Assembly (NCBI RefSeq): GCF_030652235.1
Contig: NZ_JAUSBA010000044.1
Coordinates: 1-64,000 of the forward strand
Reading direction: 5' to 3'
DNA length: 64,000 nucleotides
Source: Cypionkella sp.
Lineage (GTDB): Bacteria; Pseudomonadota; Alphaproteobacteria; Rhodobacterales; Rhodobacteraceae
In this document: positions 5,816 to 24,997 of the stretch, piece after piece
Layout: each line of letters opens with the position of its first letter
Position numbering within the stretch: the stretch's first letter is position 1
The notes under the pieces: model-generated
The model's database searches: none
Told to the model about the DNA's origin: nothing
Seen by the model: only the letters and a program-made list of their open reading frames with translations
Position numbers and translations under genes: made by a program

Positions 5816-5849
5816 GTTGTTCGCGATACAAAAGTAAGGATAACTATGT

Positions 5850-6920: not shown

Positions 6921-6922
6921 AG

Positions 6923-6936
6923 TTGCCTGTTGGCAA
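6923..6936. repeat. 14-bp inverted repeat TTGCC-N4-GGCAA (right copy)
   Basis: TTGCCTGTTGGCAA starts 2 bp after the initiator stop codon and has the same arms and spacer length as the copy at 3012-3025. It is followed by an AT-rich run (6939-6976). It could be a parS-like site or a weak terminator for the initiator gene. Confidence 0.45.
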
Positions 6937-7035
6937 TTACTCAATATTATACATTATAAACAATATGTTATGTAGTGAATTTGCGCTCTGTCGTCTTCGC
7001 GCTCGGGCGATCTGGCAGAGAGATCAGGGACAAGA

Positions 7036-7506: not shown

Positions 7507-10500
7507 TCAATGAAAATCCCGACTTGGGAACAGCTTCTTGGCCTGCTCGCGTGGATGGTGGGCGGAGGACCTGACGCTGCCCCCGGCAGGCCGCTTGGTC
7601 TCGTCCGCTCGGCCATCATTGGCGTCGATGATCACGGGGCGACCCAAAGTCGCCAGCAAGGGCGAGACATCCTCGACCCGTTCGGCAATCAAATGGGTGG
7701 TTGGGCCGTCGCGCTGGATGCGCCCGGTGACGCGGACCAGTCGCCCGGCGATGACGGCCTTGCGGAACGCCTCGTAGACCTGTTTCCAGACAATCACATT
7801 TGCGGTGCCGGTTTCATCTTCCAGCGTCAGGAAAATCACGCCTGCGGCAGTGCCGGGCCTCTGGCGGGTGATAACGAGGCCAGTAATGGTGGCGCGGCCC
7901 TTGGCTTGGCCCAGGCGGTCATGCGGCAGGCTTTCGGGCAGGCGCGCGCGCAGGAGCTCCATCGGATGGGCGCGCAAGCTGAGACGCAGTGACAAGTAAT
8001 CTTCGATCACCTCTTGGCCCAAAGTCATCTGGGGCAGGGTGACAGTTGGTTCAATGCCGCCTTCGCCATCCGGGCCAAACAGCGGCAGCGGGGCAGGGGC
8101 CTTCAGCGCTTTGGCGGCCCACAGGGCATCTCGACGCATCAGGCCGAGGGCCGCAAAGGCATCGGCTTCGGCAAGTCGCTCCAGCGTATCTGGATGCATG
8201 CCCGCCCGGCGCCAGAGGCTTTCAACATCGGGATAGCCGTTGCCGCGCGAGGCCACGATCCAAGAGGCATCCTCTTCCCGCATCCCCTTGATTTGACGGA
8301 ATCCCAGCCGCAAGGCCAGGCCACCATCGGCGCGCAGTTCCAGCGTGCAATCCCAAACCGAATGGTTGACCGAGATCGGGCGTATCTCGACGCCATGATC
8401 GCGGGCATCGCGCACCAGTTGGGCCGGGGCATAAAAGCCCATCGGCTGGCTGTTCAGCAGGGCGCAGGTAAAGACCGCCTGGTGATGGCACTTTAGCCAG
8501 GCCGAGATATAGACCAGCCGCGCGAAACTGGCGGCATGGCTTTCGGGAAAGCCGTAAGACCCGAAGCCTTCGATCTGCGCAAAACAGCGTGCCGCGAAAT
8601 CCGCGTCATAACCCCGCGCCAGCATGCCGGAGACGAAACGGTCGCGAAACGAGCCGATGGTGCCCATGCGCTTGAAGGTTGCGAGGCTACGGCGCAAACG
8701 ATCTGCTTCCGACGGCGTGAACCCTGCGGCCACCACAGCTATTTGCATCGCCTGTTCCTGAAACAGTGGCACGCCATAGGTGCGCGCCAGCACCTCCATC
8801 AAGGCGGGGCCAAGGTCTTCGACCTTCTCGCGCCCCATGCGGCGGTTGATGAACGGATGCACCATGCCACCCTGAATCGGGCCGGGGCGGACGATGGCCA
8901 CCTCGCAAACCAGATCATAGAACTTGCGGGGCCGCATCCGGGGCAGGAAGTTCAACTGCGCCCGGCTTTCCACCTGAAACACTCCGATGGCATCAGCGCG
9001 GCAGAGCATGTCATAGACCGGGACATTCTCTGGCGGGACGTTGGCCAGCGTCAGCTTTTGGCCGCGATGATCGGCCAGCAAGGTGAAGGCCTTGCGGATC
9101 GCGGTCAGCATGCCAAGGGCGAGGATATCGACCTTCAAAAGGCCAAGGGCATCAATATCATCCTTGTCCCATTCGAGGATGGTGCGATCCTCCATCGCGG
9201 CGTTTTCGATGGGGCAGAGTTCATCCAGCCGCCCATGGGTGATCACGAACCCGCCGACATGCTGCGACAGGTGGCGGGGGAAGCCGATGATTTCGCCGAT
9301 CAGTCTGGCGGCCAGCACCATGCGACCGTCGCTCGGATCGAGGCCGGCATCGCGCATCCGGTCATCGCCGGGCGCGGCAGAGGACCAGCCCCATATTTGG
9401 CCCGACAGGCGCGCAATCACGTCCTGGCTTAGGCCCATGACCTTGCCGACCTCGCGAATCGCGGCGCGGCTGCGGAAATGGATCACCACGGCTGTCAGGC
9501 CGGCGCGCTCGCGGCCATAGCGCTCGTAAATCCACTGGATCACCTCTTCGCGGCGTTCATGCTCGAAATCGACGTCGATATCCGGCGGCTCGCCGCGTTC
9601 TTTCGAGATGAACCGCTCAAAAATCAGAGTGATGCTCTCTGGTGGCACCTCGGTGACGCCCAACAGGTAGCACACGACCGAATTGGCCGCCGAGCCGCGC
9701 CCTTGGCAGAGGATACCTTTGGAGCGGGCGAACTGGACGATGTCATGCACGGTTAGGAAATAGGGCGCGTAGTCCACTTCGTGGATCAGGGTCAGTTCCT
9801 TCTCGACACGATGGACGATCTTGGGCGGCGGGCCTGCGGGATAGCGCCAGTGCAACCCTTCGCGGGTCAGGCGCTCCAACCGGGCTTGCGCGGGTTCGCC
9901 ACCCTGCGCCTCATCGGGGTATTGGTAGCGCAGATCGCTCAGCCTGAAGGCGCAGCGATCTGCAATCTCGACGGTGCGGCGCAGAGCGGCGGGGTGGCGA
10001 TGGAACAGCCGGGCCATTTCGGCCCCGGATTTCAGGCGGCGTTCACCGTTGGCCAGCCGCCGCTCGCCGATATTGTCGATGGTGACGCCTTCCCGCATGC
10101 AAGTCAGCACATCGGCCAGGGGGCGGCGGGCAGATCGGTGCATCAGCACATCTCCCACCGCAACCAAGGGCAGGTTCACGCCTTGCGCCAAGATGCCGAG
10201 TTTATCGACGAGGGCTTGATCACGGCCGTCGTACCGGGGTGCTGCCCCAAGGAAACATCGGCCGGGAAAGCCGCGGGCGATGGCCAGCAGATCGCTGCGG
10301 GTGGTTTTGGGGTTCTGATCTTCCATCGGATCGGGGGGCAGGGCGATCAGGATCATGCCTGTCCCCCATGCGATCAGATCGACGCGTTGCAGGTGGCATT
10401 TACCCTTTGGCGCGCGGCGCTTGCCCAAGGACAAGAGCCGCGTCAGGCGCGACCAGGCGGTCAGATCGGTCGGCAGGGCCAGCCACTCGACCGCAGAATC

Positions 10501-10896
10501 GGTCAACACCAACCTTGCGCCCGCGATCAGCTTTGGCAGCGGCACCTCGGATAGGGCAGGGGGGTCCGTGTGGCCGGTGAAATGCGGTGGGTTTGTATGA
10601 GATATGGGTAGGCGACTGGAATGATCGGTCACGCGCTGTGACCGGATGGTCGGGCCCTCTTGCACAGTCTCCGCAGTCGTGGCCTTTGCCTCGTCCCGCA
10701 ACCGCGCCAGTTCCTTCAGCGCGGAGAAGGCCCGCACGACACCAGCCACAGAATTGCGGTCAGTGATGGCGATGGCGGTCAGTCCCAATTCTGCCGCCCG
10801 CGTGACCAGTTCCTCAGGATGCGACGCACCGGTCAGGAACGTGAAGTTCGAGGTGACGCACAACTCGGCATAGGGCTGAAAGCGGGGTGCGGTCAT
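7507..10896 (-). CDS. dnaE2: error-prone DNA polymerase III alpha subunit DnaE2 (ImuC)
   Basis: The 1129-residue protein has the PHP domain at its N-terminus (SNFTFLTGASHPEELV, then AIAITDRNSVAGVVRA). The polymerase core carries PDIDVDFEHERREEVIQW with catalytic aspartates and the YGVPLFQEQAMQ segment. Tandem HhH follows, and an OB-fold lies near the C-terminus (ATITGLVITRQRPGTAAGVIFLTLEDETGTANVIVW). This is the translesion paralogue of the replicative DnaE. It acts with ImuA and ImuB on damaged DNA and is the cause of SOS mutagenesis in many alphaproteobacteria. The start at 10896 overlaps the imuB stop by 4 bp (ATGA); the longer frame to 11001 is rejected. The gene is last in the imuA-imuB-dnaE2 operon under the LexA box at 13028. 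Confidence 0.95.
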   Translation of the reverse strand: MTAPRFQPYAELCVTSNFTFLTGASHPEELVTRAAELGLTAIAITDRNSVAGVVRAFSALKELARLRDEAKATTAETVQEGPTIRSQRVTDHSSRLPISHTNPPHFTGHTDPPALSEVPLPKLIAGARLVLTDSAVEWLALPTDLTAWSRLTRLLSLGKRRAPKGKCHLQRVDLIAWGTGMILIALPPDPMEDQNPKTTRSDLLAIARGFPGRCFLGAAPRYDGRDQALVDKLGILAQGVNLPLVAVGDVLMHRSARRPLADVLTCMREGVTIDNIGERRLANGERRLKSGAEMARLFHRHPAALRRTVEIADRCAFRLSDLRYQYPDEAQGGEPAQARLERLTREGLHWRYPAGPPPKIVHRVEKELTLIHEVDYAPYFLTVHDIVQFARSKGILCQGRGSAANSVVCYLLGVTEVPPESITLIFERFISKERGEPPDIDVDFEHERREEVIQWIYERYGRERAGLTAVVIHFRSRAAIREVGKVMGLSQDVIARLSGQIWGWSSAAPGDDRMRDAGLDPSDGRMVLAARLIGEIIGFPRHLSQHVGGFVITHGRLDELCPIENAAMEDRTILEWDKDDIDALGLLKVDILALGMLTAIRKAFTLLADHRGQKLTLANVPPENVPVYDMLCRADAIGVFQVESRAQLNFLPRMRPRKFYDLVCEVAIVRPGPIQGGMVHPFINRRMGREKVEDLGPALMEVLARTYGVPLFQEQAMQIAVVAAGFTPSEADRLRRSLATFKRMGTIGSFRDRFVSGMLARGYDADFAARCFAQIEGFGSYGFPESHAASFARLVYISAWLKCHHQAVFTCALLNSQPMGFYAPAQLVRDARDHGVEIRPISVNHSVWDCTLELRADGGLALRLGFRQIKGMREEDASWIVASRGNGYPDVESLWRRAGMHPDTLERLAEADAFAALGLMRRDALWAAKALKAPAPLPLFGPDGEGGIEPTVTLPQMTLGQEVIEDYLSLRLSLRAHPMELLRARLPESLPHDRLGQAKGRATITGLVITRQRPGTAAGVIFLTLEDETGTANVIVWKQVYEAFRKAVIAGRLVRVTGRIQRDGPTTHLIAERVEDVSPLLATLGRPVIIDANDGRADETKRPAGGSVRSSAHHPREQAKKLFPSRDFH

Positions 10897-12428
10897 GCAA
10901 ACTCCCCCTGCACATACCAATTTTGCGCCCCTGCGGTCGCGGGCCAGTTCGCATCTTGCGGGCCGGTCCAGCTCTGCGCTTGTGGGGTCACGAACAGCCA
11001 AAGGCGCGGACCTTCCTGCGTCTCGACCCGCCAGTAATCGCGCAGGCCCGAACGCCAGGCCGGGTCATCGAACCACCATTCGGGTGCTATCCGCTCCGGT
11101 CCCGCTGCGCGCAGGGTGGTGAAGCGCATCCGACGCCAGCGGAAACTGGCGGGAGGGGTGCCGGAGGCATCCGTCACAGGTTCTGGCGGGAAAAGGGTGA
11201 TCGGGCGGTTCGAGCCTGCGCGATGAGGGGTTGGCTCGGGTGCCGAATAGGCCGCAGGGGCCATGAGAAAGCTGCGCTCTGGGATCAGGCTGGTCGCGGG
11301 CAGAAGGCGCAGGACACGCTCAAAGCCGATCCGGTTGCCGACCGAGGACATCAGGTCTGCCAAGGCATCTTCCGTTCGGATGGACGTGCCGCCGCCGATC
11401 TGCCCCGATACCTGCTCTGGGGCAAGAGCTTCGGTCACGGGGGCTGTCAGACGCATCGCGTCGATGCCAAAGCCGGAATCGATCTCGTCGACGCCTTTGG
11501 CGAACAGCGCCGCAATACGGGCAGGGTCGCGCATCGGGCGGGCGAGGCCGATCTCGACCTGTGCGGAGCCGCGATCCACGCGCCGCAACTCCAGCCGCAC
11601 CCGTCGTGCGCCCATGTGATGCTGGGCGAGTTTTGCGCATAGACGGTCCAGCAGGCGCGCGAGGCCCGCCATGACATCTGATTGCAGACCGATCGGTTCC
11701 GGCAAGGTCATCCGCACCCCGAAATGTGGGGCATCGGGCTCCGCTGCCACCGGCTCGGATTGCGCGCCAAGTGCCTGATCCAGCCGCAGCACCAGCCCCT
11801 GACCAAAACGCCGCGCCAGTGGTGCGCGGGGCAGCGGAATCAGATCAGCGATGCGCAGCAGCCCCATGCGCGACAAGCCTTCCGCAGTGTCATGATCCAC
11901 TCGGAGGGCCGTGACGGGCAGGTGTCCGATTTCTTCGGCCAGCCGTCCATCGGGCACGATCCCACCGCCATGGCGGGCGAGGGCATGGGCTGCTCCGCGC
12001 GTGCCGGCAATGGCACTGGCGGCATGCAGGCCAGCGCGCTCCAGCCGGGCTTGCAGATCCTCGCGCAAATCCTCCTCACCGCCAAAGAGATGCGGCACAC
12101 CTGAGATATCTGCCATCAGCCCGTCAACACCGTCGGTTGCCACCATGGGCGCATAGCGGCTGGCCCAGCGGCGCAAGCTGGCCAGCGCCGCCGCCTCGCG
12201 CGCCAGATCGGCAGGGCGCGTGGCGAGATCGGGACACATGGCACGGGCATCGGCCAGCGCCATGCCGCGCCTGAGGCCCCGTGCCGAGGCCGCCTGGTTC
12301 AGGCAATGCAAATGATCGGAATTGCCCGACCGATGGGTCAGGGCAAAGGGCCCCTCAAGGGGCCGTTTCCGCAGGCTCGTGTCGCTGGCGAGCCTCGGAA
12401 ACCATATGGAAAGCAGCCGACGTGCCAT
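10893..12428 (-). CDS. imuB: ImuB, Y-family polymerase-like mutasome protein
   Basis: The 511-residue protein starts MARRLLSIWFPRLASD and follows the Y-family fold (AASARGLRRGMALADARAMCPDL, then DGVDGLMADISGVPHLFGGEEDL). The acidic catalytic set of true DinB enzymes is not preserved: the first strand has WFP where active enzymes have D-x-D. ImuB is known as a catalytically dead adaptor that links ImuA and DnaE2 to the sliding clamp. The segment RPITLFPPEPV near residue 407 matches the place where ImuB proteins carry a clamp-binding motif. It overlaps imuA by 74 bp and dnaE2 by 4 bp, so the three are translationally coupled. Confidence 0.92.
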   Translation of the reverse strand: MARRLLSIWFPRLASDTSLRKRPLEGPFALTHRSGNSDHLHCLNQAASARGLRRGMALADARAMCPDLATRPADLAREAAALASLRRWASRYAPMVATDGVDGLMADISGVPHLFGGEEDLREDLQARLERAGLHAASAIAGTRGAAHALARHGGGIVPDGRLAEEIGHLPVTALRVDHDTAEGLSRMGLLRIADLIPLPRAPLARRFGQGLVLRLDQALGAQSEPVAAEPDAPHFGVRMTLPEPIGLQSDVMAGLARLLDRLCAKLAQHHMGARRVRLELRRVDRGSAQVEIGLARPMRDPARIAALFAKGVDEIDSGFGIDAMRLTAPVTEALAPEQVSGQIGGGTSIRTEDALADLMSSVGNRIGFERVLRLLPATSLIPERSFLMAPAAYSAPEPTPHRAGSNRPITLFPPEPVTDASGTPPASFRWRRMRFTTLRAAGPERIAPEWWFDDPAWRSGLRDYWRVETQEGPRLWLFVTPQAQSWTGPQDANWPATAGAQNWYVQGEFA

Positions 12429-12960
12429 TCCAGTTCAAAACCCACCTTCCAAGAGTTCCCTTTTTGTTCTTGTTAAGGGCCCATTGATGCAGAGTCGAGT
12501 CCGCAGGCTGGCTGGCCAGAGGCTCGCAGGCCCAGCGTGTCTCGGTGGCATTGCTGCCCGCCTCTTGCCGGATCAACATCAAACCGGTGGTGCGCCCGGC
12601 CTCGGCAGCGAGTTGCAACCGGCGGCCTGCGGTCAGCGAGAGGGGTTTTTCCGGCTCGGCGATCACCAGACTGACCGGCACCGCGCGCAGGGCTTCCTCG
12701 ATGCACCAGAGCAGGTCGGTCTCACCCATGGGGCGAAAGAGATGCAGCCGCTCGCCCACACCGCGCGGCAAGCCGCGCAGCATCGGCAGTTCCGGCGCAT
12801 GGGAAGGCAGAATCCAGACCAGCGGCCCCGGGTGCCGCGCCGCCTGAAACAGCGCGAAGGCCCGGCGGCCGCGGCCTTCAGCTTCGTGCACGCGCCGCGC
12901 GCGCAGATCGAAGGGATCGGCGGGGTTGGTGGCAATGCCAAGATCAGACCGCATCTGCAC
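12355..12960 (-). CDS. imuA: ImuA, RecA-like mutasome accessory protein
   Basis: This 201-residue protein is the first gene of the mutasome operon. It has the ImuA pattern: GPLVWILPSHAPELPMLRGLP, ETDLLWCIEEALRA, VSLVIAEPEKPLSLTAGRRLQLAAEAGRTTGLMLIR and TRWACEPLAS. ImuA is distantly related to RecA/SulA and binds ImuB and RecA. It lacks an obvious Walker A motif. The start could be 12960 or the in-frame ATG at 12954; a LexA box lies 68-82 bp upstream at 13028-13042. The last 74 bp are shared with imuB in another frame, a long overlap for this operon, and the C-terminal 25 residues may be poorly conserved. Confidence 0.88.
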   Translation of the reverse strand: MQMRSDLGIATNPADPFDLRARRVHEAEGRGRRAFALFQAARHPGPLVWILPSHAPELPMLRGLPRGVGERLHLFRPMGETDLLWCIEEALRAVPVSLVIAEPEKPLSLTAGRRLQLAAEAGRTTGLMLIRQEAGSNATETRWACEPLASQPADSTLHQWALNKNKKGTLGRWVLNWNGTSAAFHMVSEARQRHEPAETAP

Positions 12961-13027
12961 GCATTCCTTCCGCCATGACCTGCTGTTGACCTGCGGGAGA
13001 GCAGCCCCAAGCTTTTCGAATCCATTT

Positions 13028-13042
13028 GTTCATGCTATGTTC
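13028..13042. promoter_or_regulatory. LexA box (SOS), GTTC-N7-GTTC
   Basis: GTTCATGCTATGTTC is an exact match to the GTTC-N7-GTTC LexA operator described in Rhodobacter and other alphaproteobacteria. It lies between the divergent imuA operon (start 12960) and the small gene starting at 13067, and could repress both. Confidence 0.85.
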
Positions 13043-13066
13043 ATGCAATAAGGGAGGGACTAGCCA

Positions 13067-13324
13067 ATGGTCAACACCATAGAGGTGCCGCGGCCCGCAG
13101 CTGACGGCTGGGTCATTGAGGTTATGCCCAACACGGGCCAGCCTGTTACGAACTGGTTGGTCGTCGGGCCCTTTTATGAGTCCGGGTCAGAGACCAATCG
13201 CCAAGGCGTCCCTGATTGGATGTTTGACGATGAAGAAGAAGCCCTCAGCTATGCCCGCGCGGCTGCTGAAGACGCGCCGTATCATGTAAAGGTCGTTGTT
13301 TATCCGGCGGACCCGATTGACTGA
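13067..13324 (+). CDS. small hypothetical protein of the SOS mutasome locus
   Basis: The 85-residue acidic protein (MVNTIEVPRPAADGWVIEVM...) has a strong AGGGAGGG ribosome site 8 nt before the ATG. It has no signal peptide, membrane segment or cysteine. The pattern of short beta strands (GWVIEVMPNTG, NWLVVGPFY, YHVKVVVYP) and a helix rich in Glu/Ala (FDDEEEALSYARAAAEDA) suggests a compact alpha/beta fold. I do not recognise the family. The LexA box at 13028-13042 ends 24 bp before the start, so SOS control is likely. It is convergent with the SRAP gene, 9 bp away. Confidence 0.8.
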   Translation: MVNTIEVPRPAADGWVIEVMPNTGQPVTNWLVVGPFYESGSETNRQGVPDWMFDDEEEALSYARAAAEDAPYHVKVVVYPADPID

Positions 13325-13333
13325 GGGGCGGGT

Positions 13334-14014
13334 TCAGGCCGCGTCCTCGCGCATCCCTTCCGCGACGATCTGCAGCATCCCGTCCGGCAGGGGCCGTTGT
13401 AACTGCGGTGCCTCGGCTACGGGTGCAGTCAGCCAGCGCCGCCAGTCTTCGGGCGTCGTCAGGATGACTGGCATGGCCTTGGGATGAATCGGTGCCACCT
13501 CACGGTTGGGCGGACAGGTCAGGAATGCGAACAACTCCGCCGTGACCGCGCCCTCCTTCAGCTTGCGCACCGAGGTCCATTCGGTGCGGATGCCTGCAAA
13601 AAACGCCAGCGGCCGATCAGCGCCGAGGGCAAACCAGACCGGATGGTTGCGGGGTGCGCCGGGACGGCTGTCGATCTCGGAAAAGCTGGTGAAGGGCACA
13701 AGGCAGCGGTTGGAAACCCCGAGCCAGCGCTTCCAATGCGAGGAGGCCACGTTGCGGATATTGGTGACGCCGGGATCGGTGCGTTTGCCTTCCAGAAACA
13801 CCTGCGGTGTTGGCATCCCCCAACGAGCCTTGGTCAACTGCCAGCCACCATTCACCCCATGCCGGATGATTGGTGCGGCATAGTCGGGGAAAATTCCAGC
13901 CATCGGTGGCAGGTTGCCCACCAGATCCTCATAGACCTCGTCTTCACCGGCCATGTCGTCAAAGACATGCCGCATCGCGTCCTGGCTTTTGGTCTGGGAA
14001 TAGAGGTTGCACAT
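13334..14014 (-). CDS. SRAP domain protein (HMCES/YedK family)
   Basis: The 226-residue protein starts MCNLYS, with the catalytic Cys2 that forms a thiazolidine link to abasic sites in single-stranded DNA. Other family features are ARWGMPTP, TNIRNVASSHWKRWL, NRCLVPFTSFSEI and the late histidine in APIHPKAMPVIL. HMCES/YedK shields abasic sites and competes with error-prone bypass, so its position beside imuA-imuB-dnaE2 is sensible. A LexA box lies 38-52 bp upstream of the start (14052-14066), which puts it in the SOS regulon of this strain. Met1 must be removed to expose Cys2. Confidence 0.93.
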   Translation of the reverse strand: MCNLYSQTKSQDAMRHVFDDMAGEDEVYEDLVGNLPPMAGIFPDYAAPIIRHGVNGGWQLTKARWGMPTPQVFLEGKRTDPGVTNIRNVASSHWKRWLGVSNRCLVPFTSFSEIDSRPGAPRNHPVWFALGADRPLAFFAGIRTEWTSVRKLKEGAVTAELFAFLTCPPNREVAPIHPKAMPVILTTPEDWRRWLTAPVAEAPQLQRPLPDGMLQIVAEGMREDAA

Positions 14015-14228: not shown

Positions 14229-15425
14229 ATGAACAGCATGGAAATCCTGGAACCCGCCCGGCCGGTGCGCGGCGGCTACAAGGTGGATGTCACCCGCGGG
14301 GAGCGGAACGGGCGGGTGTCGTCCGAATGGTGGGGTCGCCCCGATGACGAGCGGTTCCTCTCGCTCGATGACCTCTGGTCTTCGGTCAAGGCGCGGTCCG
14401 AGCGCAGCCGGACCCGGATTGTCGAGACGGCGAAGATCCATGTCGAGGCGAGCCGGGACAATGCGGAGAAGCTGCACCTGATACTGCCCAAATCGGACGT
14501 ACCCGTTGCTCCGACCCATTGGGCCTTCGGCCAGCTTGCCAGCATCGTCGGAGCGCCCGCAGCCTATCTACGCCAGCTGCCCGCAACGCTCGCCGGCGTC
14601 AATCTGCAATATGGCCTCTCGTCGCATCGCGCCGAGCAGGTGAAGACCTTCGAGTTTGAGGATGGCCGAACCGAACTGCGCGCGGTCACCGGGCCAGATT
14701 ATGGCCGTATCCACGACCACGAACTGGTCGAAGCCGTACAGCGCATCGCTGGCAACGGTACCGGCGATACGCGCTGGAAAGTGCCGGGCGTGCTTGACTG
14801 GTCGACCGGGGTCTACAATCCCGATGTCGAGATCAGCCGCGACACGACCACGCTCTATGCCTCGGACCGGGATGTCTTCGTCTTCCTGGTCGACGACCGC
14901 AATCCGATCGAAGCGGGCCGGTTGCCAGATGGCTCTCCCGATCTCTATTTCCGGGGATTTTATTGCTGGAACTCCGAGGTCGGGGCAAAGACCCTTGGAA
15001 TGGCCAGCTTCTATCTGCGCGCCGTCTGTCAGAACCGCAACCTCTGGGGCGTCGAGGATTTCCAGGAGATTACGATCCGCCACTCGAAATACGCCGCCTC
15101 TCGCTTCGCCCAGGAGGCGGCACCAGCACTGACCCGCTTTGCCAATTCCTCGCCCATGGGCTTCGTGAACGGCATCACGGCGGCGCGCCAGCAGATCGTC
15201 GCGCGCGACGACGAGGAGCGGGAGACATTTCTGCGCAAGCGCGGGTTCTCGAAGGCCGAGTCCGGCAAGATCATCGAAAAGGTGCTGATGGAGGAGGGCC
15301 GTCCACCCGAGAGCATCTTCGATTTCGTGCAGGGCATCACGCGGCTTGCACGGGACAAGACCCAGCAGGATGCCCGGCTCGATATGGAAGGCCGTGCCAA
15401 GAAGCTCCTCGACCGCGTCGGCTGA
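14229..15425 (+). CDS. DUF932 family protein of mobile elements
   Basis: The 398-residue soluble protein matches the DUF932 / phage-plasmid-like protein pattern: LHLILPKSDVPVAPTHWAFGQ, LSSHRAEQVKTFEFEDGRTELRAVTGPDYGRI, STGVYNPDVEISRDTTTLYASDRDVFVFLVDD and FYLRAVCQNRNLWGVEDFQE. Its biochemical role is unknown. DUF932 genes occur on conjugative plasmids and integrative elements, often in a cassette with small hypothetical genes and a short radC-like gene, exactly as here. GGAG 8 nt upstream supports the ATG at 14229 (MNSMEI). It is followed by the 75-residue protein and the radC fragment on the same strand. It is full length, so the mobile-type cassette is intact up to the junction at 16095. 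Confidence 0.85.
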   Translation: MNSMEILEPARPVRGGYKVDVTRGERNGRVSSEWWGRPDDERFLSLDDLWSSVKARSERSRTRIVETAKIHVEASRDNAEKLHLILPKSDVPVAPTHWAFGQLASIVGAPAAYLRQLPATLAGVNLQYGLSSHRAEQVKTFEFEDGRTELRAVTGPDYGRIHDHELVEAVQRIAGNGTGDTRWKVPGVLDWSTGVYNPDVEISRDTTTLYASDRDVFVFLVDDRNPIEAGRLPDGSPDLYFRGFYCWNSEVGAKTLGMASFYLRAVCQNRNLWGVEDFQEITIRHSKYAASRFAQEAAPALTRFANSSPMGFVNGITAARQQIVARDDEERETFLRKRGFSKAESGKIIEKVLMEEGRPPESIFDFVQGITRLARDKTQQDARLDMEGRAKKLLDRVG

Positions 15426-15581: not shown

Positions 15582-15809
15582 ATGGCGGCCTTTCATATCG
15601 AGGATGACATGCAGACCTTTGACTACAAAGTGGACAATGCAGTTCACGCCGCTTTCATGGCTCTCGGACTTGCGGTCGCGAACCATATCGAGCTGGCCTA
15701 TCGGCTCAACGACTTCATCACGCAGGAGTTCCAGTTCGTCGTGACTGATGATGACGGCGAGGATCCGGCCGGTGCCGCAATCGATCAGGGGATCGCCGAT
15801 GCTGAATGA
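15582..15809 (+). CDS. small hypothetical protein of the DUF932-radC cassette
   Basis: The ATG at 15582 follows a strong GGGAGGGGG ribosome site and gives 75 residues ([37 protein letters not shown]...). The C-terminal end is very acidic ([21 protein letters not shown]). The protein is probably mostly helical and has no membrane segment. Its end overlaps the start of the radC fragment at 15799, so the two were translationally coupled. I do not recognise the family. Confidence 0.7.
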
Positions 15810-16095
15810 GCAAGAGCAGACCGTGATCCTGGAGGCACGCGAGATTCTCGGGCGCTACCTGAACCGAAACCCCGTCCTTGGCAGTTGGCAAGCGGTCATG
15901 GATTACTGTGCCCTTTCGGTGCGCGGCGAAGTTGAGTGCTTCCACGTGCTTTACCTCGACCGGAAAAACCGGCTGATCGCGGACGAGCGGCTGTCTGTCG
16001 GCACCGTCGACCACGTTCCGGTCTATCCCCGCGAGATCCTGAAACGCGCATTGGCACTCAATGCCTCCGCGCTGATCCTGGTCCATTATGTGGCG
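15799..16095 (+). pseudogene. radC: 5' part of a mobile-type radC (JAB/MPN domain), truncated at a palindromic junction
   Basis: From ATG 15799 the frame reads [20 protein letters not shown], then the RadC domain: [49 protein letters not shown]. It then stops matching exactly where the metal-binding HNHPSGDP motif should begin, replaced by YVACHK. The frame stays open to 16674 but only because it reads the opposite strand of the second radC copy. Without the H-x-H and Asp residues no JAMM metal site can form, so this is a broken gene. It lacks the N-terminal HhH half of chromosomal RadC, as is usual for plasmid and island versions. Confidence 0.8.
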
Positions 16096-16145
16096 TGCCA
16101 CAAAATGCACCAGGATCAGCGCCGAGGCGTTCAGTTCCAGCCCGC
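16046..16145. repeat. inverted-repeat junction joining two radC genes
   Basis: The two strands are near-mirror images around a centre at 16095/16096. The inner arms are GTGGC (16090-16094) and GCCAC (16097-16101). The next arms are CATTATGTGGC (16084-16094) against GCCACAAAATG (16097-16107). Further out, GCGCTGATCCTGGT matches ACCAGGATCAGCGC. The outer arms are the homologous, diverged parts of the two radC genes, so the similarity continues for about 150 bp on each side. The central 18 bp (16087-16104) do not encode any expected RadC residues. Confidence 0.8.
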
Positions 16146-16713
16146 GCTTGACCACCTCCCGCGGATACACAGGAACATGATCAACGGTGCCCTTGGCCTG
16201 CTCCTCATCTGCGATCAGCACATTTTTGCGATCCAGAAAAAGGATGCGGAATTGTTCGGTTTCGCGGTGCGCCATCGCGGTGTGGCAGTAATCCAGCAGC
16301 GCATCCCAAGACGACAGCAAGGGCCGGTTCATCACCCGCGCCCGCATCATACGTTGGGCGGCGGCCTCGATGATCTTCAGCTCTTGCACCACAGCATCCC
16401 CGACACCTTTCACCATCATCAGACGGGCGGGCACGGCGGCAACGACGCGATTGAAGTCGCCGAATTCATCCAGCAGGGCGCGGGCAAGCGGTTTCACATC
16501 CTGCCGGGGAATGGCGCGGAACAGCAGCAACTCCAGCAGTTCGTAATCGGGGATCGCCGTGGCACCGCCTTCCATGAACCGGGTACGCAGGCGTTTGCGG
16601 TGGTCGGCGATATAGGACGGCAACCTTTCCGGCAAAGCCTGACCCACAGCCTCATCGCCATCAGAGGCGAATAAGGGCAAGGCGGCTTCGTGAAAGGCGC
16701 GGGGTTTGCTCAT
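16096..16713 (-). pseudogene. radC: chromosomal radC, 3' end lost at the inverted junction
   Basis: The minus-strand gene starts [19 protein letters not shown] and has the N-terminal helix-hairpin-helix part ([30 protein letters not shown]...[13 protein letters not shown]). The RadC core follows through [49 protein letters not shown]. It then breaks at the same codon as the facing copy (FVARHI instead of NHPSG). About 206 residues remain and about 45, including the metal ligands, are missing. The frame continues to 15718 only across antisense of the other copy. RadC's cellular role is uncertain; this copy cannot bind the metal. Confidence 0.82.
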
Positions 16714-16758
16714 GGCGGCTAGGCTGCCATGAAACTGGTGAAGGAATCGTTAACGGCC

Positions 16759-17985
16759 TTAAAGCATCCGCAGCAATTCCATGCTGGGCTGGCCCGTCAC
16801 CGACAGCCCCCGCGCACGTTGGAAATCACTGATCGCGGCGATGGTTTTCGCGCCGATCACGCCATCTGCACCTTGGGTGTCGAACCCTGCCGCCGTCAGT
16901 TTACGCTGCAGTTCCTGCCGATCTTGCAGAGTCATGCCCTGCGCATCCGGGCCAAACGCCGCCCGCAACGGCCCTGCGCCGTTCAGACGGTCTGACAGAT
17001 AGCCGACGCCCAGCGCATAATTCTCGGCGTTGTTATAGCGCAGGATGACGTTGAAGTTCTGATACAGCAGGAAAGCCGGGCCACTGGGGCCAGCGGGCAG
17101 CAGCAAAGACGCCGCACCATGCCCGCCCAAACCACCATTCACCCCGCGCACCCCCAGATCAGCCCAATCCGACCGCCCCTTGCCGCGCCCCACAAGCCCG
17201 GTGTTGAAACCGCTTGGCAGCGTCACCTCTTGCCCCCAAGGCTGACCATGCGTCCAACCGTTTTTGGACAGATAGGCGGCGGTCGATGCGAGGGCATCGG
17301 TTGGATCATCGCTCCAGATATCGCGGCGGCCATCGCCGTTGAAATCCACTGCGAAGGCTTGATAGCTGGTCGGGATGAATTGGGTGTGGCCCATCGCCCC
17401 TGCCCAACTGCCCTGCATGTTTTGCGCAGTAGTGTCGCCGTTTTGCAGAATCTTCAGCGCGGCCACCAACTGCTGTTCAAAGAACGTGGCGCGACGGCCT
17501 TCATAGGCCAAGGTCGCCAGCGCCGAGATGGTCGGAACATTGCCGCGCCTTGTACCAAAAAAGCTTTCCAGCCCCCAGAAGGCGGCAACGACATGAGGTT
17601 CCACGCCATAGCGCGCCTCAATCGCGCGCAGAGTGCCCATCTGTTGCGCCAGAACCTGACGGCCCATGATCAGGCGTTCATCGCTGGCGGCAATCGCCAA
17701 ATAGTCTTCGGTGGTGCGGGTGAATTCGGTCTGGTTGCGGTCTTTCTCGATTACGCCGGGGATGAAACCCGAGGCGCGGAAGGCGGTGCTAAAGGTCGCG
17801 TCCGAGATGCCTTTCGACAAGGCCCGTGGACGGAACGCCTGCACCCAAGCGTCAAAGCCTGCGTCGGGCACCATCGGCATGACGGCTGGGGCCTGCGCAC
17901 GGCTGGATGCACCGCCGCCTCCAACGCAGGCAGACAGCCCAAGTGCGGCGATACCGAATGAGAAATTGCGCCGCGTGACCTGCAT
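16759..17985 (-). CDS. lytic murein transglycosylase, MltB type with peptidoglycan-binding domain
   Basis: The 408-residue product starts MQVTRRNFSFGIAALGLSACVGGGG: a twin-arginine-like start followed by a lipobox (LSAC), so it is probably an outer-membrane lipoprotein. The SLT_2 domain has catalytic Glu in FWGLESFFGTRRGN, AMGHTQFIPTSY, and an EF-like VDFNGDGRRDIWSDDPTDALASTAAYL. The C-terminal 60 residues are a PG_binding_1 domain (LQDRQELQRKLTAAGFDTQGADGVIGAKT...FQRARGL). It cleaves murein glycan strands to 1,6-anhydro products. The ATG at 17985 follows GGAGGTTTAC; the longer frame is rejected. Confidence 0.9.
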   Translation of the reverse strand: MQVTRRNFSFGIAALGLSACVGGGGASSRAQAPAVMPMVPDAGFDAWVQAFRPRALSKGISDATFSTAFRASGFIPGVIEKDRNQTEFTRTTEDYLAIAASDERLIMGRQVLAQQMGTLRAIEARYGVEPHVVAAFWGLESFFGTRRGNVPTISALATLAYEGRRATFFEQQLVAALKILQNGDTTAQNMQGSWAGAMGHTQFIPTSYQAFAVDFNGDGRRDIWSDDPTDALASTAAYLSKNGWTHGQPWGQEVTLPSGFNTGLVGRGKGRSDWADLGVRGVNGGLGGHGAASLLLPAGPSGPAFLLYQNFNVILRYNNAENYALGVGYLSDRLNGAGPLRAAFGPDAQGMTLQDRQELQRKLTAAGFDTQGADGVIGAKTIAAISDFQRARGLSVTGQPSMELLRML

Positions 17986-18070
17986 GTAAACCTCCAGCAC
18001 CCTGCTTTTGGCCAAGCTTAAAGCATTCTCCGCGAAGGGCAAACCGATGCAGGGCATTTCCGCCGAAGCC

Positions 18071-18682
18071 TTAAGCCTGCAACTGCGCCCGCTCGGCTTC
18101 GGTCAGCAACGCGGCTGCCACAGCCAGCACCAGCGCGATGGAGTCGTGTGGTGACAGCGCCTCACCCGTGGCACGCCGCAGCCACAGCCCATCAATCATC
18201 GTGCCCAGCGCGAGGGCGATCTGCTTAAAGCGCGCGTCGGGCAGCACGTCGCGGAACACCGAGGCAAGGTTCGATTGCAGGCGGGCGTAGAAAATCCGTT
18301 GCAGGCGGGCATAGCGGGCGTTGGTGGCCGAGGCCGCGCAGACCGACAGCCACGCGTTGGCGATGTTCGGCTCGAACAGACCTTCAGGGAAGTTGCCCGC
18401 GATGATCGCCTGAAGCCTGCCCCAACGCGTCTTCGCCTGCGCCAGCCCCGACGCCACCGCCTCCATCAGCAGGCGATTGTTCAGCCGCACCATCGCGAAC
18501 AGCACGTCTTCCTTGCCTTTGAAGTAATACGACAGGATGCCCGCAGACATGCCGGCTTCCTCGCAGATGCGCTTGGTGGTCATGCCGCCCAAGCCATGCT
18601 GCATGAACACGCGATGCGCGGCTTGTATAAGTTCGCGGCGGCGGAGGTCTTCGATACGGGTGCGGAAGGCAATTTTGGTCAT
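18071..18682 (-). CDS. TetR-family repressor, BetI-like
   Basis: The 203-residue protein has the TetR helix-turn-helix at the N-terminus (RRRELIQAAHRVFMQHGLGGMTTKRICEEAGMSAGILSYYFKGKEDVLFAMV). The C-terminal domain contains ARLQRIFYARLQSNLASVFRD and LALGTMIDGLWLRRATGEAL, close to the BetI-type ligand domain. BetI represses choline-uptake and betaine-synthesis genes and is relieved by choline. The divergent neighbour encodes a choline-type binding protein, which supports that role. The start at 18682 was chosen because the frame upstream has no conserved sequence and runs into the neighbour's promoter. Confidence 0.85.
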   Translation of the reverse strand: MTKIAFRTRIEDLRRRELIQAAHRVFMQHGLGGMTTKRICEEAGMSAGILSYYFKGKEDVLFAMVRLNNRLLMEAVASGLAQAKTRWGRLQAIIAGNFPEGLFEPNIANAWLSVCAASATNARYARLQRIFYARLQSNLASVFRDVLPDARFKQIALALGTMIDGLWLRRATGEALSPHDSIALVLAVAAALLTEAERAQLQA

Positions 18683-18722
18683 GGGTTTTTGTAGCAGATC
18701 AAAAAACTGAACGCACATACAA

Positions 18723-18747
18723 AAATTTATATTGACGTATAAAATTT
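18723..18747. promoter_or_regulatory. AT-rich operator candidate between the TetR gene and choX
   Basis: In the 103-bp divergent gap, TTTATATTGACGTATAAA (18726-18743) has TTTATA/TATAAA arms and sits in longer AAATTT-rich flanks. It lies 39-64 bp from both starts. TetR/BetI regulators bind such palindromes; the assignment is positional. Confidence 0.45.
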
Positions 18748-18785
18748 GCCCGCGCAGGGTTGGATCAGCAATCGGGGAGATAACC

Positions 18786-19715
18786 ATGCGCAAGGTTCTG
18801 GCAGGATTGGTGATGACAATGATGGCCACGGGGGCCGCGCAAGCGGGCGAGCCCGAGGCTTGTAAAGCGGTGCGGATGTCGGACTTGGGTTGGACCGATA
18901 TCGGGCTGACCAATGCCACAGCCGAAACCATTCTGAACACGCTGGGCTATCAGGCCACGCAAACCCTGCTCAGCCTTGATGTGACTTTCGTGTCGATGCA
19001 GCGCGGCGATATTGATGTGTTTCAGGGCAACTGGCGGCCGTTCCAAGACGTGCAATACGCGCAGTTCTTTGACGATGGCTCGGTCGAGCGCTTGGGGATG
19101 AACCTTGAGGGCGCGAAATACACCCTCGCAGTACCGAAATATGTCGCGGACGCCGGCGTGCATAGTTTCAACGATCTGGCGGCGCATGGCGATCAGTTTG
19201 AGAAGAAGATCTACGCGATCGAGCCGGGCTCGAACCAACCTCTGCTGGATATGGTCGCCGCGAATGCGCATGGCTTGGGCGATTGGACGATTGTGGAAAG
19301 CTCGGAAGCCGGGATGCTGGCTGAGGTTGAACGTTCGGTCACGCGTAAGGATTGGATTGTGTTCCTCGGCTGGCAGCCGCATCCGATGAATGTGGTCTAT
19401 CAGATGGATTATCTGGCAGATGGCGATGCCGAGTTTGGCCCGAATTTCGGTGGTGCTTCGGTCTACACCATCGCGCGCAAGGGCTATGCGCAGACCTGCC
19501 CGAATGTGACGAAGTTCTTCAGCCAGCTTGCGTTCAACATCGACTACGAAAACACCGGGATGCAGATGGTGATGGGCAAGGGGATCGAGTTTCCGGCTGC
19601 CGCCAGTGCGATGATGGCCAAGCATCCCGAGATGGTTGAAGCTTGGCTTAAGGACGTCACCACCTTTGACGGCCAGCCAGCCCTGCCTGTGGTGAAATCC
19701 GCTTTGGGTCTGTAA
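18786..19715 (+). CDS. choX: choline/betaine ABC-transporter periplasmic binding protein (ChoX/OpuAC type)
   Basis: The 309-residue protein has a signal peptide (MRKVLAGLVMTMMATGAAQA) and the OpuAC fold: VRMSDLGWTDIGLTNATAETILNTLGY, DVFQGNWRP, YAIEPGSNQPLLDMV, WIVFLGWQPHPMN and the late hinge. Trp residues of the binding cage (WTD, NWRP, WQPHPMN) are present. It would bind choline or a related quaternary amine. GGGGAG upstream supports ATG 18786. The permease and ATPase genes usually next to choX (choW, choV) are absent; an alcohol dehydrogenase follows with no gap. Regulation by the divergent TetR gene is inferred. Confidence 0.85.
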   Translation: MRKVLAGLVMTMMATGAAQAGEPEACKAVRMSDLGWTDIGLTNATAETILNTLGYQATQTLLSLDVTFVSMQRGDIDVFQGNWRPFQDVQYAQFFDDGSVERLGMNLEGAKYTLAVPKYVADAGVHSFNDLAAHGDQFEKKIYAIEPGSNQPLLDMVAANAHGLGDWTIVESSEAGMLAEVERSVTRKDWIVFLGWQPHPMNVVYQMDYLADGDAEFGPNFGGASVYTIARKGYAQTCPNVTKFFSQLAFNIDYENTGMQMVMGKGIEFPAAASAMMAKHPEMVEAWLKDVTTFDGQPALPVVKSALGL

Positions 19716-20729
19716 ATGGCCTTGATGCGTGCTGCCGTGATGCACGGCTTTGGCCAGCCCTTGCGGCTGGTCGATCTGCCCGTACCTACCCCAGGTCCTG
19801 GTGAAATCCTGATCCGACTAGAGGCCAGCGGGGTTTGCCATTCCGACGTGCATATCTGGACCGGCGACACCCAGCCCGCCACGGCCCCCGATCCGTTTAT
19901 CCTCGGGCATGAGGGTGTCGGCGAGGTTGCCGCCATCGGCGCCGGAGTTGAAGGCTGGGTGCTGGGTGAACGTGCCGGAGCGGCTTGGCTGCATGACACC
20001 TGTGGCGTCTGCGATCTGTGCTTGGCGGGCGAGGAAAGCTTCTGCGCCGCCCAGCGCGCGCACGGCTTCAACGTGCCGGGGACGTTCGCCGAATATGTCG
20101 TGGCGAAAGCAGCTTTCGCGGTGAAGGTTCCGGCGGGCGACGGGCCTGCTTTGGCCCCTTTGATGTGCGCTGGCTTGACAGCTTTTGGCGCGATTGAGCG
20201 GGCAAAGCTGGCACATGGCGAAACCTGTGCGATCTTTGGCTGCGGCGGGCTGGGCCTGTTCGCGGTGCAACTCGCAGCAAGGCGGGGCGCGACGGTGATT
20301 GCCGTCGATACCGACCCGGCCAAACTCGACATGGCGCGGCGATTGGGGGCAAGCGCCACCGAACTGGCGACCGCCACCCTGCCCGACACTTGGCCCAGCG
20401 CCTTGCGTGCCCATGTCACGATCAACTTTGCCCCCACAACCCGCACTTGGCCCGCGATGCAGGCCGCCACGCGACCCTTGGGGCGGATCATTGCAGCGGC
20501 AATGGTGGCAGAGCCCGTACCGCTCAGCCAGGAATGGCTGACATGGACAGGCATCACCTTGACAGGAACCAGCGTTGGCACCCGCGCGCAGATGGCGGCG
20601 CTGATGGCCTTGCACCAAGCTGACCCGCTGGAAAGCGCCGTCGAGGTGATCCGGCTGCAAGATGCCTCGGACGCGTTGCGGGCATTGCGCGAAGGCCGCG
20701 CCAAAATGCGGTATAGCATCGTTTTCTAA
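19716..20729 (+). CDS. zinc-dependent alcohol dehydrogenase (MDR superfamily)
   Basis: The 337-residue protein has the catalytic zinc ligands Cys in GVCHSDVH and His-Glu in GHEGVGEV. The four-cysteine structural zinc loop is present in CGVCDLCLAGEESFC, with one expected Cys position at the end. A Rossmann fold follows (IFGCGGLGLFAVQLAARRGATVIAVDTD). The pattern resembles NAD(P)-dependent primary alcohol/propanol-preferring dehydrogenases. The ATG starts directly after the choX stop codon, so the two are cotranscribed. A link to choline or another amino alcohol is possible but unproven. ATG 19725 (MRAAVM) is an alternative start. Confidence 0.85.
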   Translation: MALMRAAVMHGFGQPLRLVDLPVPTPGPGEILIRLEASGVCHSDVHIWTGDTQPATAPDPFILGHEGVGEVAAIGAGVEGWVLGERAGAAWLHDTCGVCDLCLAGEESFCAAQRAHGFNVPGTFAEYVVAKAAFAVKVPAGDGPALAPLMCAGLTAFGAIERAKLAHGETCAIFGCGGLGLFAVQLAARRGATVIAVDTDPAKLDMARRLGASATELATATLPDTWPSALRAHVTINFAPTTRTWPAMQAATRPLGRIIAAAMVAEPVPLSQEWLTWTGITLTGTSVGTRAQMAALMALHQADPLESAVEVIRLQDASDALRALREGRAKMRYSIVF

Positions 20730-20794
20730 CCCGGCTTGGAACCGCGCTGCTTTCGCGGCTATGCTGCCCGCGTAGCGAAAAGGAAGGCGACACA

Positions 20795-21556
20795 ATGCGC
20801 ATCGACCTGAACTCTGATCTTGGCGAGGGCTACGGCCCTTGGGCGATGGGCGACGATGCGGCGATGCTGGGGCTTGTGACCAGCGCCAATATTGCCTGCG
20901 GCGGTCATGCGAGCGATCCTGAGACGATGTTCCACACCCTACGATTGGCCGCTCAGAACGGCGTCACCGTGGGGGCGCATCCCGGCTATAATGACACGCT
21001 GGGCTTTGGCCGCCGCGTACTCCCGATGGCTGCGGCAGAGGTTGGCCGCATGGTCGCCGCACAGATCGGCAGCTTGCAAGGGGTGGCCGCGCTGGCGGGA
21101 ACCCGGGTGGCTTATGTCAAGCCGCATGGCGCACTGGCAAACCTCGCCGCCGATGACCGCGCTGTGGCGGATGCGATTGCGGCGGCCGTGAAGGCGATCT
21201 CGCCCGATCTGGCGCTGCTGGCGATTTCGGGCACCGAATTGGAACATGCCGCCCGCGCTGCTGGTATCAACGTGTTCTCCGAGATTTTCGCCGACCGCGG
21301 CTATCTGCCCAACGGTCGCCTCGTGCCACGCAGCCAGCCCGGCGCGATGATCCATGACCCGGAAGCGGCGGTCACCCGGCTGCTCTGGTTTTTTGCGTCC
21401 GGCCTGATGCCCGTGGTCGGTGGCGATCCGATCCCGCTCGCAGCGCAGTCGATCTGTGTGCATGGCGACAGCCCTGGCGCGGTCGAGATGGCCCGCCAGA
21501 TCCGCAGCGGTCTGGGCACGGCAGGGGTCACCATCGCCGCCTTTCTGCCCGCCTGA
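20795..21556 (+). CDS. pxpA: 5-oxoprolinase subunit A (LamB/YcsF family)
   Basis: The 253-residue protein starts MRIDLNSDLGEGYGPW and carries the family motifs SANIACGGHASDPETM, GVTVGAHPGYNDTLGFGRR, VKPHGALAN and EIFADRGYLPNGRLVPR. With PxpB and PxpC it hydrolyses 5-oxoproline to glutamate in an ATP-dependent reaction, clearing a damage product of glutamine. AAGGAAGG lies just before the ATG. It is the first gene of pxpA-pxpB-pxpC, with a 3-bp gap to pxpB. Confidence 0.95.
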   Translation: MRIDLNSDLGEGYGPWAMGDDAAMLGLVTSANIACGGHASDPETMFHTLRLAAQNGVTVGAHPGYNDTLGFGRRVLPMAAAEVGRMVAAQIGSLQGVAALAGTRVAYVKPHGALANLAADDRAVADAIAAAVKAISPDLALLAISGTELEHAARAAGINVFSEIFADRGYLPNGRLVPRSQPGAMIHDPEAAVTRLLWFFASGLMPVVGGDPIPLAAQSICVHGDSPGAVEMARQIRSGLGTAGVTIAAFLPA

Positions 21557-21559
21557 GCC

Positions 21560-22246
21560 ATGCAGCCCACCCCAAACGCCCCGATCTTCCGCCCCATCGC
21601 CGAACGCGCGGTGCTGGTGGAGTTTGGCACGGTGCTGGGTCAAGCTGCTCATCAGGCCGTGTTACGGCTGGATCAGGCGCTGGCTGCGCAGCGCTTCGTG
21701 GGGTTTCGCGAATCCGTACCCGCCTTGGTCAACCTGCTGGTCGAATTTGACACGCTGGCCACCGATCACCCCACCGTCATCGCACATCTGCGCGGCTTAC
21801 TCACTGCGCAAACGATTGCCTGCCCGCAACCCGCCCAGCGCGAGGTACTGATCTGCTACGACACTGACCTCGCCCCCGATCTGGCCGCTGTCGCCCAACA
21901 AAGCGGCCTGACACCCGAGGCGGTGATCAACGCTCATCTCTTCGGCAATTACGCCGTGTTCATGTATGGCTTCGCCCCCGGCTACGCCTATCTCGGTGGC
22001 GTGCCGAAAGCGATCCGGCTGGACCGCAAGCCCAGCCCTGTGCGCGGCGTCGCGGCGGGATCAGTGATTATCGCCGGGGCGCAATGCCTGATCACCACGC
22101 TGCTGATGCCAACCGGGTGGTGGATCATTGGCAGATCGCCCACCGCGATCCTGACCCGTGACCCCGCCCGCCCCTTCCTGTTCGACGTCGGCGACAAAGT
22201 GCACTTCCGCCGCATCAGCCGGGCGGAATACGAGGCGGCACAATGA
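21560..22246 (+). CDS. pxpB: 5-oxoprolinase subunit B (KipI family)
   Basis: The 228-residue protein has the allophanate-hydrolase subunit 1 fold: ERAVLVEFG at the start, SVPALVNLLVEFD, and the signature YGFAPGYAYLGGVP, followed by RGVAAGSVIIAGAQCLI and PTGWWIIGRSP. It pairs with PxpC to activate the substrate. Its stop codon overlaps the pxpC start by 4 bp. The protein is full length and unremarkable. Confidence 0.93.
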   Translation: MQPTPNAPIFRPIAERAVLVEFGTVLGQAAHQAVLRLDQALAAQRFVGFRESVPALVNLLVEFDTLATDHPTVIAHLRGLLTAQTIACPQPAQREVLICYDTDLAPDLAAVAQQSGLTPEAVINAHLFGNYAVFMYGFAPGYAYLGGVPKAIRLDRKPSPVRGVAAGSVIIAGAQCLITTLLMPTGWWIIGRSPTAILTRDPARPFLFDVGDKVHFRRISRAEYEAAQ

Positions 22247-23187
22247 CCGAAGCCATCCTTCGCGTCGCATTCTCTGGCCCGCATGTGACCATCCAAGACG
22301 CAGGCCGCCCCGGCCTGATGCGGTACGGTGTCTCGGCTTCTGGCCCAATGGACCGCCAAAGTTTCAAGCTGGCCAATGCCGTCTTGGGCAATCCGCCGGG
22401 TCATCCTGGCATCGAAATATCGCTCGGCGGGCTATCGCTGCGCTGCAAGAGCGGAGCCGTCACCCTGGCCCTTGCAGGCGGTGGCTTCATCGCCGAAACC
22501 CCTGACCGCAAGCTTGGCGCGTGGAACGTGCTGACTCTGCGCGCCGGCGAAACCCTGACCATCCGCCCCGGTCCTTGGGGCAGTTGGAGCTACCTTGCCT
22601 TCGCGGGCAATCTGCAAGCCGAAAGCTGGCTTGGCAGCCGCGCCACACATGGCTCATCCGGCTTTGGTGGTGGCAAACTGGCAATGGGGCAGACGCTGAC
22701 GATCACCAATGCACAAGCTCTCCCGAACCGCGAAGGCCCAATCCCCTGCCCGATCTGGGCCCGCCCGCGCCACTTGTTGCGCTGCACGCTTGGCCCGCAA
22801 GATCGCTTTTTTAATACCGAAACGCTGAACACGTTCACTTCGGCGCGGTTCGAGATGTCCGACGCTTTCGACCGGATGGGTCTGCGCCTGCGCGGGCCGT
22901 CCATCGCACCCACCGCGGCGCTGTCGATCCCGTCCGAGCCGATCCTGCGCGGTTCGGTGCAGGTTTCGGGCGATGGCACAGCCACGGTGCTGTTGTCAGA
23001 TCACCAGACCACCGGAGGTTATCCGAAAATCGCCACCGTTTTGGCCGATGATCTGGATGCTTTCGTACAATGCCGCCCGCGCGATGCGGCGATGTTCCAA
23101 GCCATCACGCCCGCGCAAGCCATCGCGATCACGCGGCAAAACGCCATCCGCTTTGCCGCGTTTGAAGATCGGCTCCGCCGCGCTTAA
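22243..23187 (+). CDS. pxpC: 5-oxoprolinase subunit C (KipA family)
   Basis: The 314-residue protein has the biotin-dependent-carboxyltransferase-like fold of allophanate hydrolase subunit 2: GPHVTIQDAGRPGLMRYGVSASGPMDRQSF, ANAVLGNPPGHPGIEI, SWLGSRATH and SDHQTTGGYPKIATV near the C-terminus. It is the last gene of the 5-oxoprolinase operon and its end overlaps the convergent gndA by 4 bp, so the operon has no room for its own terminator. Confidence 0.93.
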   Translation: MTEAILRVAFSGPHVTIQDAGRPGLMRYGVSASGPMDRQSFKLANAVLGNPPGHPGIEISLGGLSLRCKSGAVTLALAGGGFIAETPDRKLGAWNVLTLRAGETLTIRPGPWGSWSYLAFAGNLQAESWLGSRATHGSSGFGGGKLAMGQTLTITNAQALPNREGPIPCPIWARPRHLLRCTLGPQDRFFNTETLNTFTSARFEMSDAFDRMGLRLRGPSIAPTAALSIPSEPILRGSVQVSGDGTATVLLSDHQTTGGYPKIATVLADDLDAFVQCRPRDAAMFQAITPAQAIAITRQNAIRFAAFEDRLRRA

Positions 23188-24593: not shown

Positions 24594-24763
24594 GGTCTCT
24601 GTGCTCCGACGCGGTTCAAGGTGATAGCGTATAGGCTGGTGGTGGCGGCGATATACAACTGACGCTTGGCCCGCCCGCCAAAGCACAGATTAGAAACGGT
24701 TGGCGGCACCAGAATCTGGCCCATAGGATGGCCGTCAGCTGCGATGCAATGCACACCATCGCC
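24590..24763 (-). pseudogene. 3' remnant of an SMP-30/gluconolactonase-family gene
   Basis: The last 57 codons read DGVHCIAADGHPMGQILVPP, then TVSNLCFGGRAKRQLYIAAT and TSLYAITLNRVGAQRP. This is the C-terminal beta-propeller blade of SMP-30/gluconolactonases, which usually ends VANLCFGG...TASTSLYALYLN. Nothing upstream (24764-24910) matches the first five blades; the frame there only runs into unrelated sequence and then to the promoter of the divergent SPFH gene. So about 80% of the gene is gone. Such lactonases supply gluconate-type acids, which fits the neighbour gnd. Confidence 0.75.
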
Positions 24764-24997
24764 AGCCGTGGGGCGGCCCCAACCCATCGCAAAGCGGCCA
24801 AATGCTGGGTCGTTGGTTTCAAAGCATGACATGAAGCCGCCTCCCCGCGCAATGTGAGCGATAACATAGCGCAAGGTCAAACCGAAAGGTATCCCGCCGT
24901 ATACCGCCAAAACAGCGGCCCGTTGCGAAACGCTGCGAAAAGGGGCACCTTGAGGCAGGCCCTACAGCCCCCTTTTGATGTGACACAGGAGCTTTTC

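Follow-up and report, generated by a model that had tools for sequence, protein, structure and literature searches.

Two truncated radC genes meet tail to tail in the 64,000-bp window analyzed here (positions 1 to 64,000 of contig C40, in a draft genome of 4.80 Mb and 76 contigs), and between them lies a 20-bp unit of the type that accompanies RIT elements. The reading that we favor, at a probability of roughly 70%, is that site-specific recombination by a RIT element at the radC codons ILVH/NHPSG fused a plasmid to the chromosome. The RIT itself is located outside the window.

The junction occupies positions 15799 to 16713 and reads, in order, radC1, GGTCCA, TTATGTGGCGTGCCACAAAA, TGCACC, and chromosomal radC. 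RadC hidden Markov models matched the 5′ part of a plasmid-type gene, radC1, on the plus strand (15799 to 16079) and the 5′ part of the chromosomal radC on the minus strand (16112 to 16713). TIGR00608 aligned over model positions 85 to 167 in radC1 and 1 to 167 in the chromosomal radC, of 218 positions, and PF04002 aligned over positions 3 to 72 and 2 to 72, respectively, of 121. Both matches thus stop just before HNHPSG, and this metal-binding segment is absent at the junction, such that no complete RadC is encoded there. The original prediction had placed the meeting of two radC 5′ parts at 16095/16096, each cut before HNHPSG, and that point is the exact center of the 20-bp unit (16086 to 16105). 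The tail-to-tail contact was borne out, but a simple fusion of two genes was not, since the 20-bp unit and two 6-bp sites intervene. The unit is part of neither gene, as radC1 with its 6-bp site extends to 16085 and the chromosomal radC with its own site begins at 16106. The site on the radC1 side, GGTCCA (16080 to 16085, plus strand), has the position and length of the 6-bp sites found beside RIT elements in other loci (L017, L014/L015, and contig C27), and a homologous unit, TTATGTGGCGCGCCACATAA, separates the gene 5′ half from the RIT in L017, L014, and C27. The site on the chromosomal side, GGTGCA on the minus strand (TGCACC on the plus strand, 16106 to 16111), was defined by alignment with an intact radC of the same genus and by a 6-bp contig overlap described below. 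With RIT-like arms on either side, the 6-bp sites look like tyrosine-recombinase core sites, and a RIT target site accounts for the break point common to the two genes.

The two gene halves resemble each other closely. Recomputation returned the 37 identities previously reported among the last 49 residues shared by radC1 and the chromosomal radC. At the DNA level, arms of 177 bp lying 2 nt apart (15918 to 16094 and 16097 to 16273) were 71% complementary, and reading frames of 308 and 331 amino acids were open on the two strands, in keeping with the near-palindromic, doubly open segment that had been predicted. Complementarity of this extent might have allowed homologous recombination between similar radC genes, or an unrelated deletion at a fragile palindrome. 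We regard these events as very improbable because a homologous crossover would yield 5′/3′ hybrids rather than a foreign 20-bp unit flanked by two 5′ halves, and because an identical break occurs in C27 and in other species. A search of the 4.80-Mb genome with the degenerate pattern TTWTGTGGCRYGCCACAWAATG, allowing up to 3 mismatches, returned two sites only, the junction and the radC break in C27, and a backwards control of the pattern returned 0 matches. The junction unit is a variant, carrying the TGCCACAAAA half, that the pattern search found nowhere else in the genome. No recombinase trio is present at the junction, where the 20-bp unit stands alone between the two radC halves, and the 64-kb window contains no tRNA that could have served as the insertion site.

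DNA to the left of the junction is of plasmid type. Pfam searches identified a Rep_3 replication initiator on the plus strand (5850 to 6920; Rep3_N and Rep3_C above cutoff), a ParA-like gene on the minus strand (4019 to 5236; AAA_31 above cutoff), and a ParB-like gene on the minus strand (3027 to 4022; SoPB_HTH above cutoff and ParB_N at 24.9 bits, just under the cutoff of 26.3). This partition and replication region (3027 to 6920) matched plasmids (H104 and H105). Pfam also identified, on the minus strand at 7507 to 14014, a plasmid SOS block encoding a DnaE-type error-prone polymerase, a Y-family polymerase, and an SRAP peptidase. Next comes a DUF932-type gene on the plus strand (14229 to 15425), of the kind found ahead of radC in plasmid modules; its plasmid matches are annotated as DUF932, and its Pfam score was 19.8 bits, below the cutoff of 23. 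Consistent with a plasmid arrangement, a similar polymerase-peptidase-DUF932 block runs into an annotated radC on Gemmobacter fulvus plasmid p3. The homologous DUF932-radC module of C27, used as a query, matched 312 of 72,556 plasmid records, 59 of them over at least 80% of its length. At the far left of the window, an integrase gene occupies 106 to 1227, and the start of C27 reads as its last codons; the integrase is therefore probably repeated, which would have interrupted the assembly.

DNA to the right of the junction (16112 to 25134) follows the order of contig C6 of G247, a genome of the same genus, except for approximately 1.6 kb of G247 that has no counterpart in C40. The assignment of a mobile-type radC to the plus strand and a chromosomal radC to the minus strand therefore stood, as did the proposed island/chromosome boundary. 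Further to the right, two identical perfect palindromes, AATGTTTCACGTGAAACATT, occur at 36987 to 37006 and 44215 to 44234; they contain what we take to be the parS consensus, and on that basis the right-hand portion of the window would lie close to the origin of the chromosome. A 24-bp perfect palindrome at 54308 to 54331, AAAGGCTCCCCGCGGGGAGCCTTT, is possibly a terminator.

Four RadC matches were found in the genome, three of them 5′ halves (both strands of C40 and one on C27) and one a 3′ half (C4), and all four pieces were cut at model position 70 to 72. On C4, a RIT terminal repeat immediately precedes the 3′ half, which begins at 2644, and C4 positions 1 to 2640 hold a row of tyrosine-recombinase genes, the tail of one followed by two complete ones. 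G247 carries a single intact radC that represents the empty site for the chromosomal gene. When aligned to this locus (L054), C40 matched up to position 10375 and C4 from position 10370, leaving exactly 6 bp in common, and both contigs continued in L054 order for 9 to 10 kb. The overlap and the kept order indicate that C40 and C4 were once neighbors at radC. This is the comparison with a relative carrying an intact radC that was originally proposed. In the window, an intact HNHPSG-containing radC, which would have spoken against the junction, did not turn up at 15799 to 16713; the chromosomal 3′ half lies on another contig. The proposed search for the missing 3′ ends succeeded for the chromosomal radC, behind the RIT end on C4, but not for radC1.

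The state of radC in this genome is rare in the family. A RadC match was present in 266 of 295 family genomes, this one included, and among the other 265 the best E value was 1.4e-35 or lower in 264 and 1.8e-20 in G273 (73% complete), compared with 1.9e-19 here; a good RadC E value is not in itself proof of an intact gene.

The third 5′ half, radC2, is of plasmid type and lies at the end of C27, where it is followed by GGTCCA, TTATGTGGCGCGCCACATAA, TGGATC, a RIT terminal repeat, and the end of the contig. The start and end of C27 suggest that it is a second such plasmid; genes for denitrification and oxidases, assigned by similarity at 60001 to 80000, make its nature less sure. The ritC-side RIT ends of C4 and C27 were identical at 123 of 135 positions, whereas the C27 end was indistinguishable from the L017 and L014 ends (135 of 135), and we conclude that at least two RIT copies are present. 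A single RIT spanning C27 and C4 was accordingly ruled out, as both contigs show a ritC-side end and the ends differ. Only 132 bp of the C27-type RIT is present, its interior being missing, and the assembly yielded no 3′ half for radC1 or radC2 and no ritA-side RIT end. The lack of ritA-side ends could also be due to two truncated RITs lying head to head. Plasmid genes downstream of the missing 3′ halves were not found in the examined stretches of C40, C27, C4, and C42, and a weak C42 match, considered as the missing 3′ or downstream piece, led nowhere.

Relatives show what an occupied site looks like. The usual locus consists of a radC 5′ half, 6 bp, a 20-bp palindrome, 6 bp, a RIT in either orientation, 6 bp, and the 3′ half. 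In the window, by contrast, another radC 5′ half stands where the RIT would adjoin the unit. In Pseudooceanicola sediminis (L017), a complete three-gene RIT lies inside a plasmid-type radC with the layout GGTCCA, TTATGTGGCGCGCCACATAA, TGGATC, RIT, GATCCA, and CAACCACCC, followed by the radC 3′ half. Its genes, putatively ritA (3704 to 4972), ritB (ending at 5961), and ritC (5958 to 6968), overlap at ATGA, and C4 has a partial first recombinase gene and two complete ones with the same ritA/ritB overlap. Four stretches were found in a terminal-repeat scan, and the L017 element is bounded by inverted 25-bp words at 3578 to 3602 (plus) and 7120 to 7144 (minus), a span of approximately 3.5 kb; on C4, the contig ends within the element. 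The C4 and L017 elements were classed as RITs on the basis of an overlapping tyrosine-recombinase trio, a defined target that is unoccupied in a relative, and, for L017, the terminal repeats and length of approximately 3.5 kb. Two contigs of one Pseudotabrizicola metagenome-assembled genome (L014 and L015), which probably join, given their shared end sequence, have an L017-like layout with the RIT reversed. Close RITs are rare, as RitC matched at an E value of 1e-60 or lower in 4 of 394 family genomes, including this one, and the other three matches had 38 to 40% identity.

For the chromosomal radC, the 6 bp of intact G247 (TGTGCA) was found on the C4 side, and GGTGCA was found on the C40 side. 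Likewise, when L017 was compared with an intact radC on a Celeribacter plasmid (L024), the 3′ side carried the 6 bp of the intact relative and the 5′ side differed, so that the pattern holds in two cases only. In L014/L015, the 6-bp sites are alike on both sides.

In the radC and strawberry-notch-type loci, the palindrome keeps to one side of its target. It adjoined the gene 5′ half in all three radC loci holding that side (L017, L014, and C27) and in three of three strawberry-notch-type loci examined (L044, L045, and L046), irrespective of RIT orientation. The latter are plasmid genes carrying a more distant RIT with a 20-bp palindrome of its own, TTATGCGCAGCTGCGCATAA, which in L046 has one mismatch pair. 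A scan of 15 loci for perfect arms of at least 9 bp returned a palindrome near the RIT end in seven (L017, L014, L023, L044, L045, L047, and L050). That of L046 is imperfect, L015 and L016, which contain only the gene 3′ side, had none, the palindromes of L048 and L049 were not at the RIT end examined, and no perfect palindrome was found in L051, L052, and L053. Of 20 plasmid records, seven were compared (H1, H2, H3, H5, H7, H12, and H14). On plasmids of Sinorhizobium (L047, 4820 to 4849) and Cupriavidus (L050, 4841 to 4860), palindromes near ritC-like sequence fit a 20-bp unit with 6-bp flanks. On a phage contig (L023, 1470 to 1640), a RIT-like terminal sequence and the 20-bp palindrome of the radC RITs sit beside one phage-integrase-family recombinase gene. 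The palindrome was also considered as a general chromosomal site and rejected as such: CATTWTGTGGCNNGCCACAWAATG occurred in 1 of 394 family genomes and TTATGTGGCNNGCCACATAA, a pattern that excludes the window variant, in 1 of 385 genomes at the class level, in each case this genome only.

The junction probably arose when a site composed of palindrome, 6 bp, and RIT end, which looks like the termini of a circular intermediate once joined, recombined with a bare 6-bp radC site on another replicon. In an orientation permitted by symmetry, exchange would produce the chromosomal radC 5′ half, 6 bp, the 20-bp unit, 6 bp, the reversed radC1 5′ half, and the plasmid. At its far end, the product would read plasmid, RIT, 6 bp, and chromosomal radC 3′ half. 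The first part would correspond to the window and the last to C4, and one exchange would give both. The product would be identical whether the RIT first resided in plasmid radC1 or in the chromosomal radC. Since the order of this product matches that of the junction, the 20-bp unit would be a scar, and a plasmid with replication and partition genes would lie in the chromosome. We infer recombinase action, the order of events, and an unbroken run of plasmid DNA from the window to C4; the radC1 and radC2 3′ halves and the ritA-side ends being absent, the far boundary is unproven and the link between the window plasmid and C4 unseen.

The same recombinase system might instead have acted by inversion, on plasmid DNA residing elsewhere in the chromosome or on an inverted pair of RIT-split radC genes on one molecule. 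Inversion between two inverted sites would give the same junction, and the occurrence of RITs in both orientations among relatives is compatible with either inversion at these sites or bidirectional insertion. We consider inversion unlikely, as plasmid replication and partition genes adjoin the junction with no need for a second chromosomal locus, and on either side of the break the chromosome follows the order of G247. A chimera of two RIT-split radC loci, created in assembly or in the library, could be suspected because the draft comprises 76 contigs, RIT sequence lies at the end of two contigs, the junction is near-palindromic, and partner pieces are missing. Such a chimera is improbable, since the exact 6-20-6 layout is kept and the pattern search found the TGCCACAAAA-half variant nowhere else in the genome. 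Moreover, exact matches of the 36-bp junction reached 17 bp with the end of C27 and stayed below 10 bp with the first 5 kb of C4, making it unlikely that these pieces were misjoined through shared k-mers. We conclude that plasmid-chromosome fusion by RIT recombination best accounts for the junction.

More tentatively, RITs may come with a 20-bp palindromic docking unit fixed to the 5′ side of the target, giving three core sites rather than two, and may fuse replicons at radC with a tail-to-tail scar. Because radC is conserved on chromosomes and on many plasmids, such a unit would let RIT recombinases fuse whole replicons. The junction, as read here, illustrates how a conserved housekeeping gene can act as a docking site common to plasmids and chromosome. 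For RIT elements, which move by a mechanism still to be proven, it provides a concrete, testable site structure of 6 bp, 20 bp, and 6 bp.

Insertion of RITs in radC is already published, for CMGI-2 of C. metallidurans and GI3 of B. petrii in one paper (PMC2864759) and for RIT6 in radC of Tn6054, as "data not shown," in another (PMC3414803). The latter also notes an inverted repeat and palindrome near RIT ends and describes RIT mobility as being without experimental proof. We found no published description of the tail-to-tail fusion scar or of a palindrome kept on the gene 5′ side; Ricker et al. 2013 may describe the palindrome. The elements reported here resemble published RITs in having three consecutive overlapping tyrosine-recombinase genes, approximately 3.5 kb between terminal inverted repeats, and insertion in radC, but no RIT is present at the junction, where the 20-bp unit lies between the 5′ halves of two distinct radC genes. 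SE elements (strand-biased circularizing) and GInts (three-integrase islands) are also comparable (PMC10214605), in that a 6-bp site lies at each end, one apparently nonnative, as reported for SEs, but they carry a further conserved gene, srap or ginD. Finally, the neighborhoods of radC1 and radC2 resemble plasmid DUF932-radC modules, but each of the two copies here is truncated at the RIT target.
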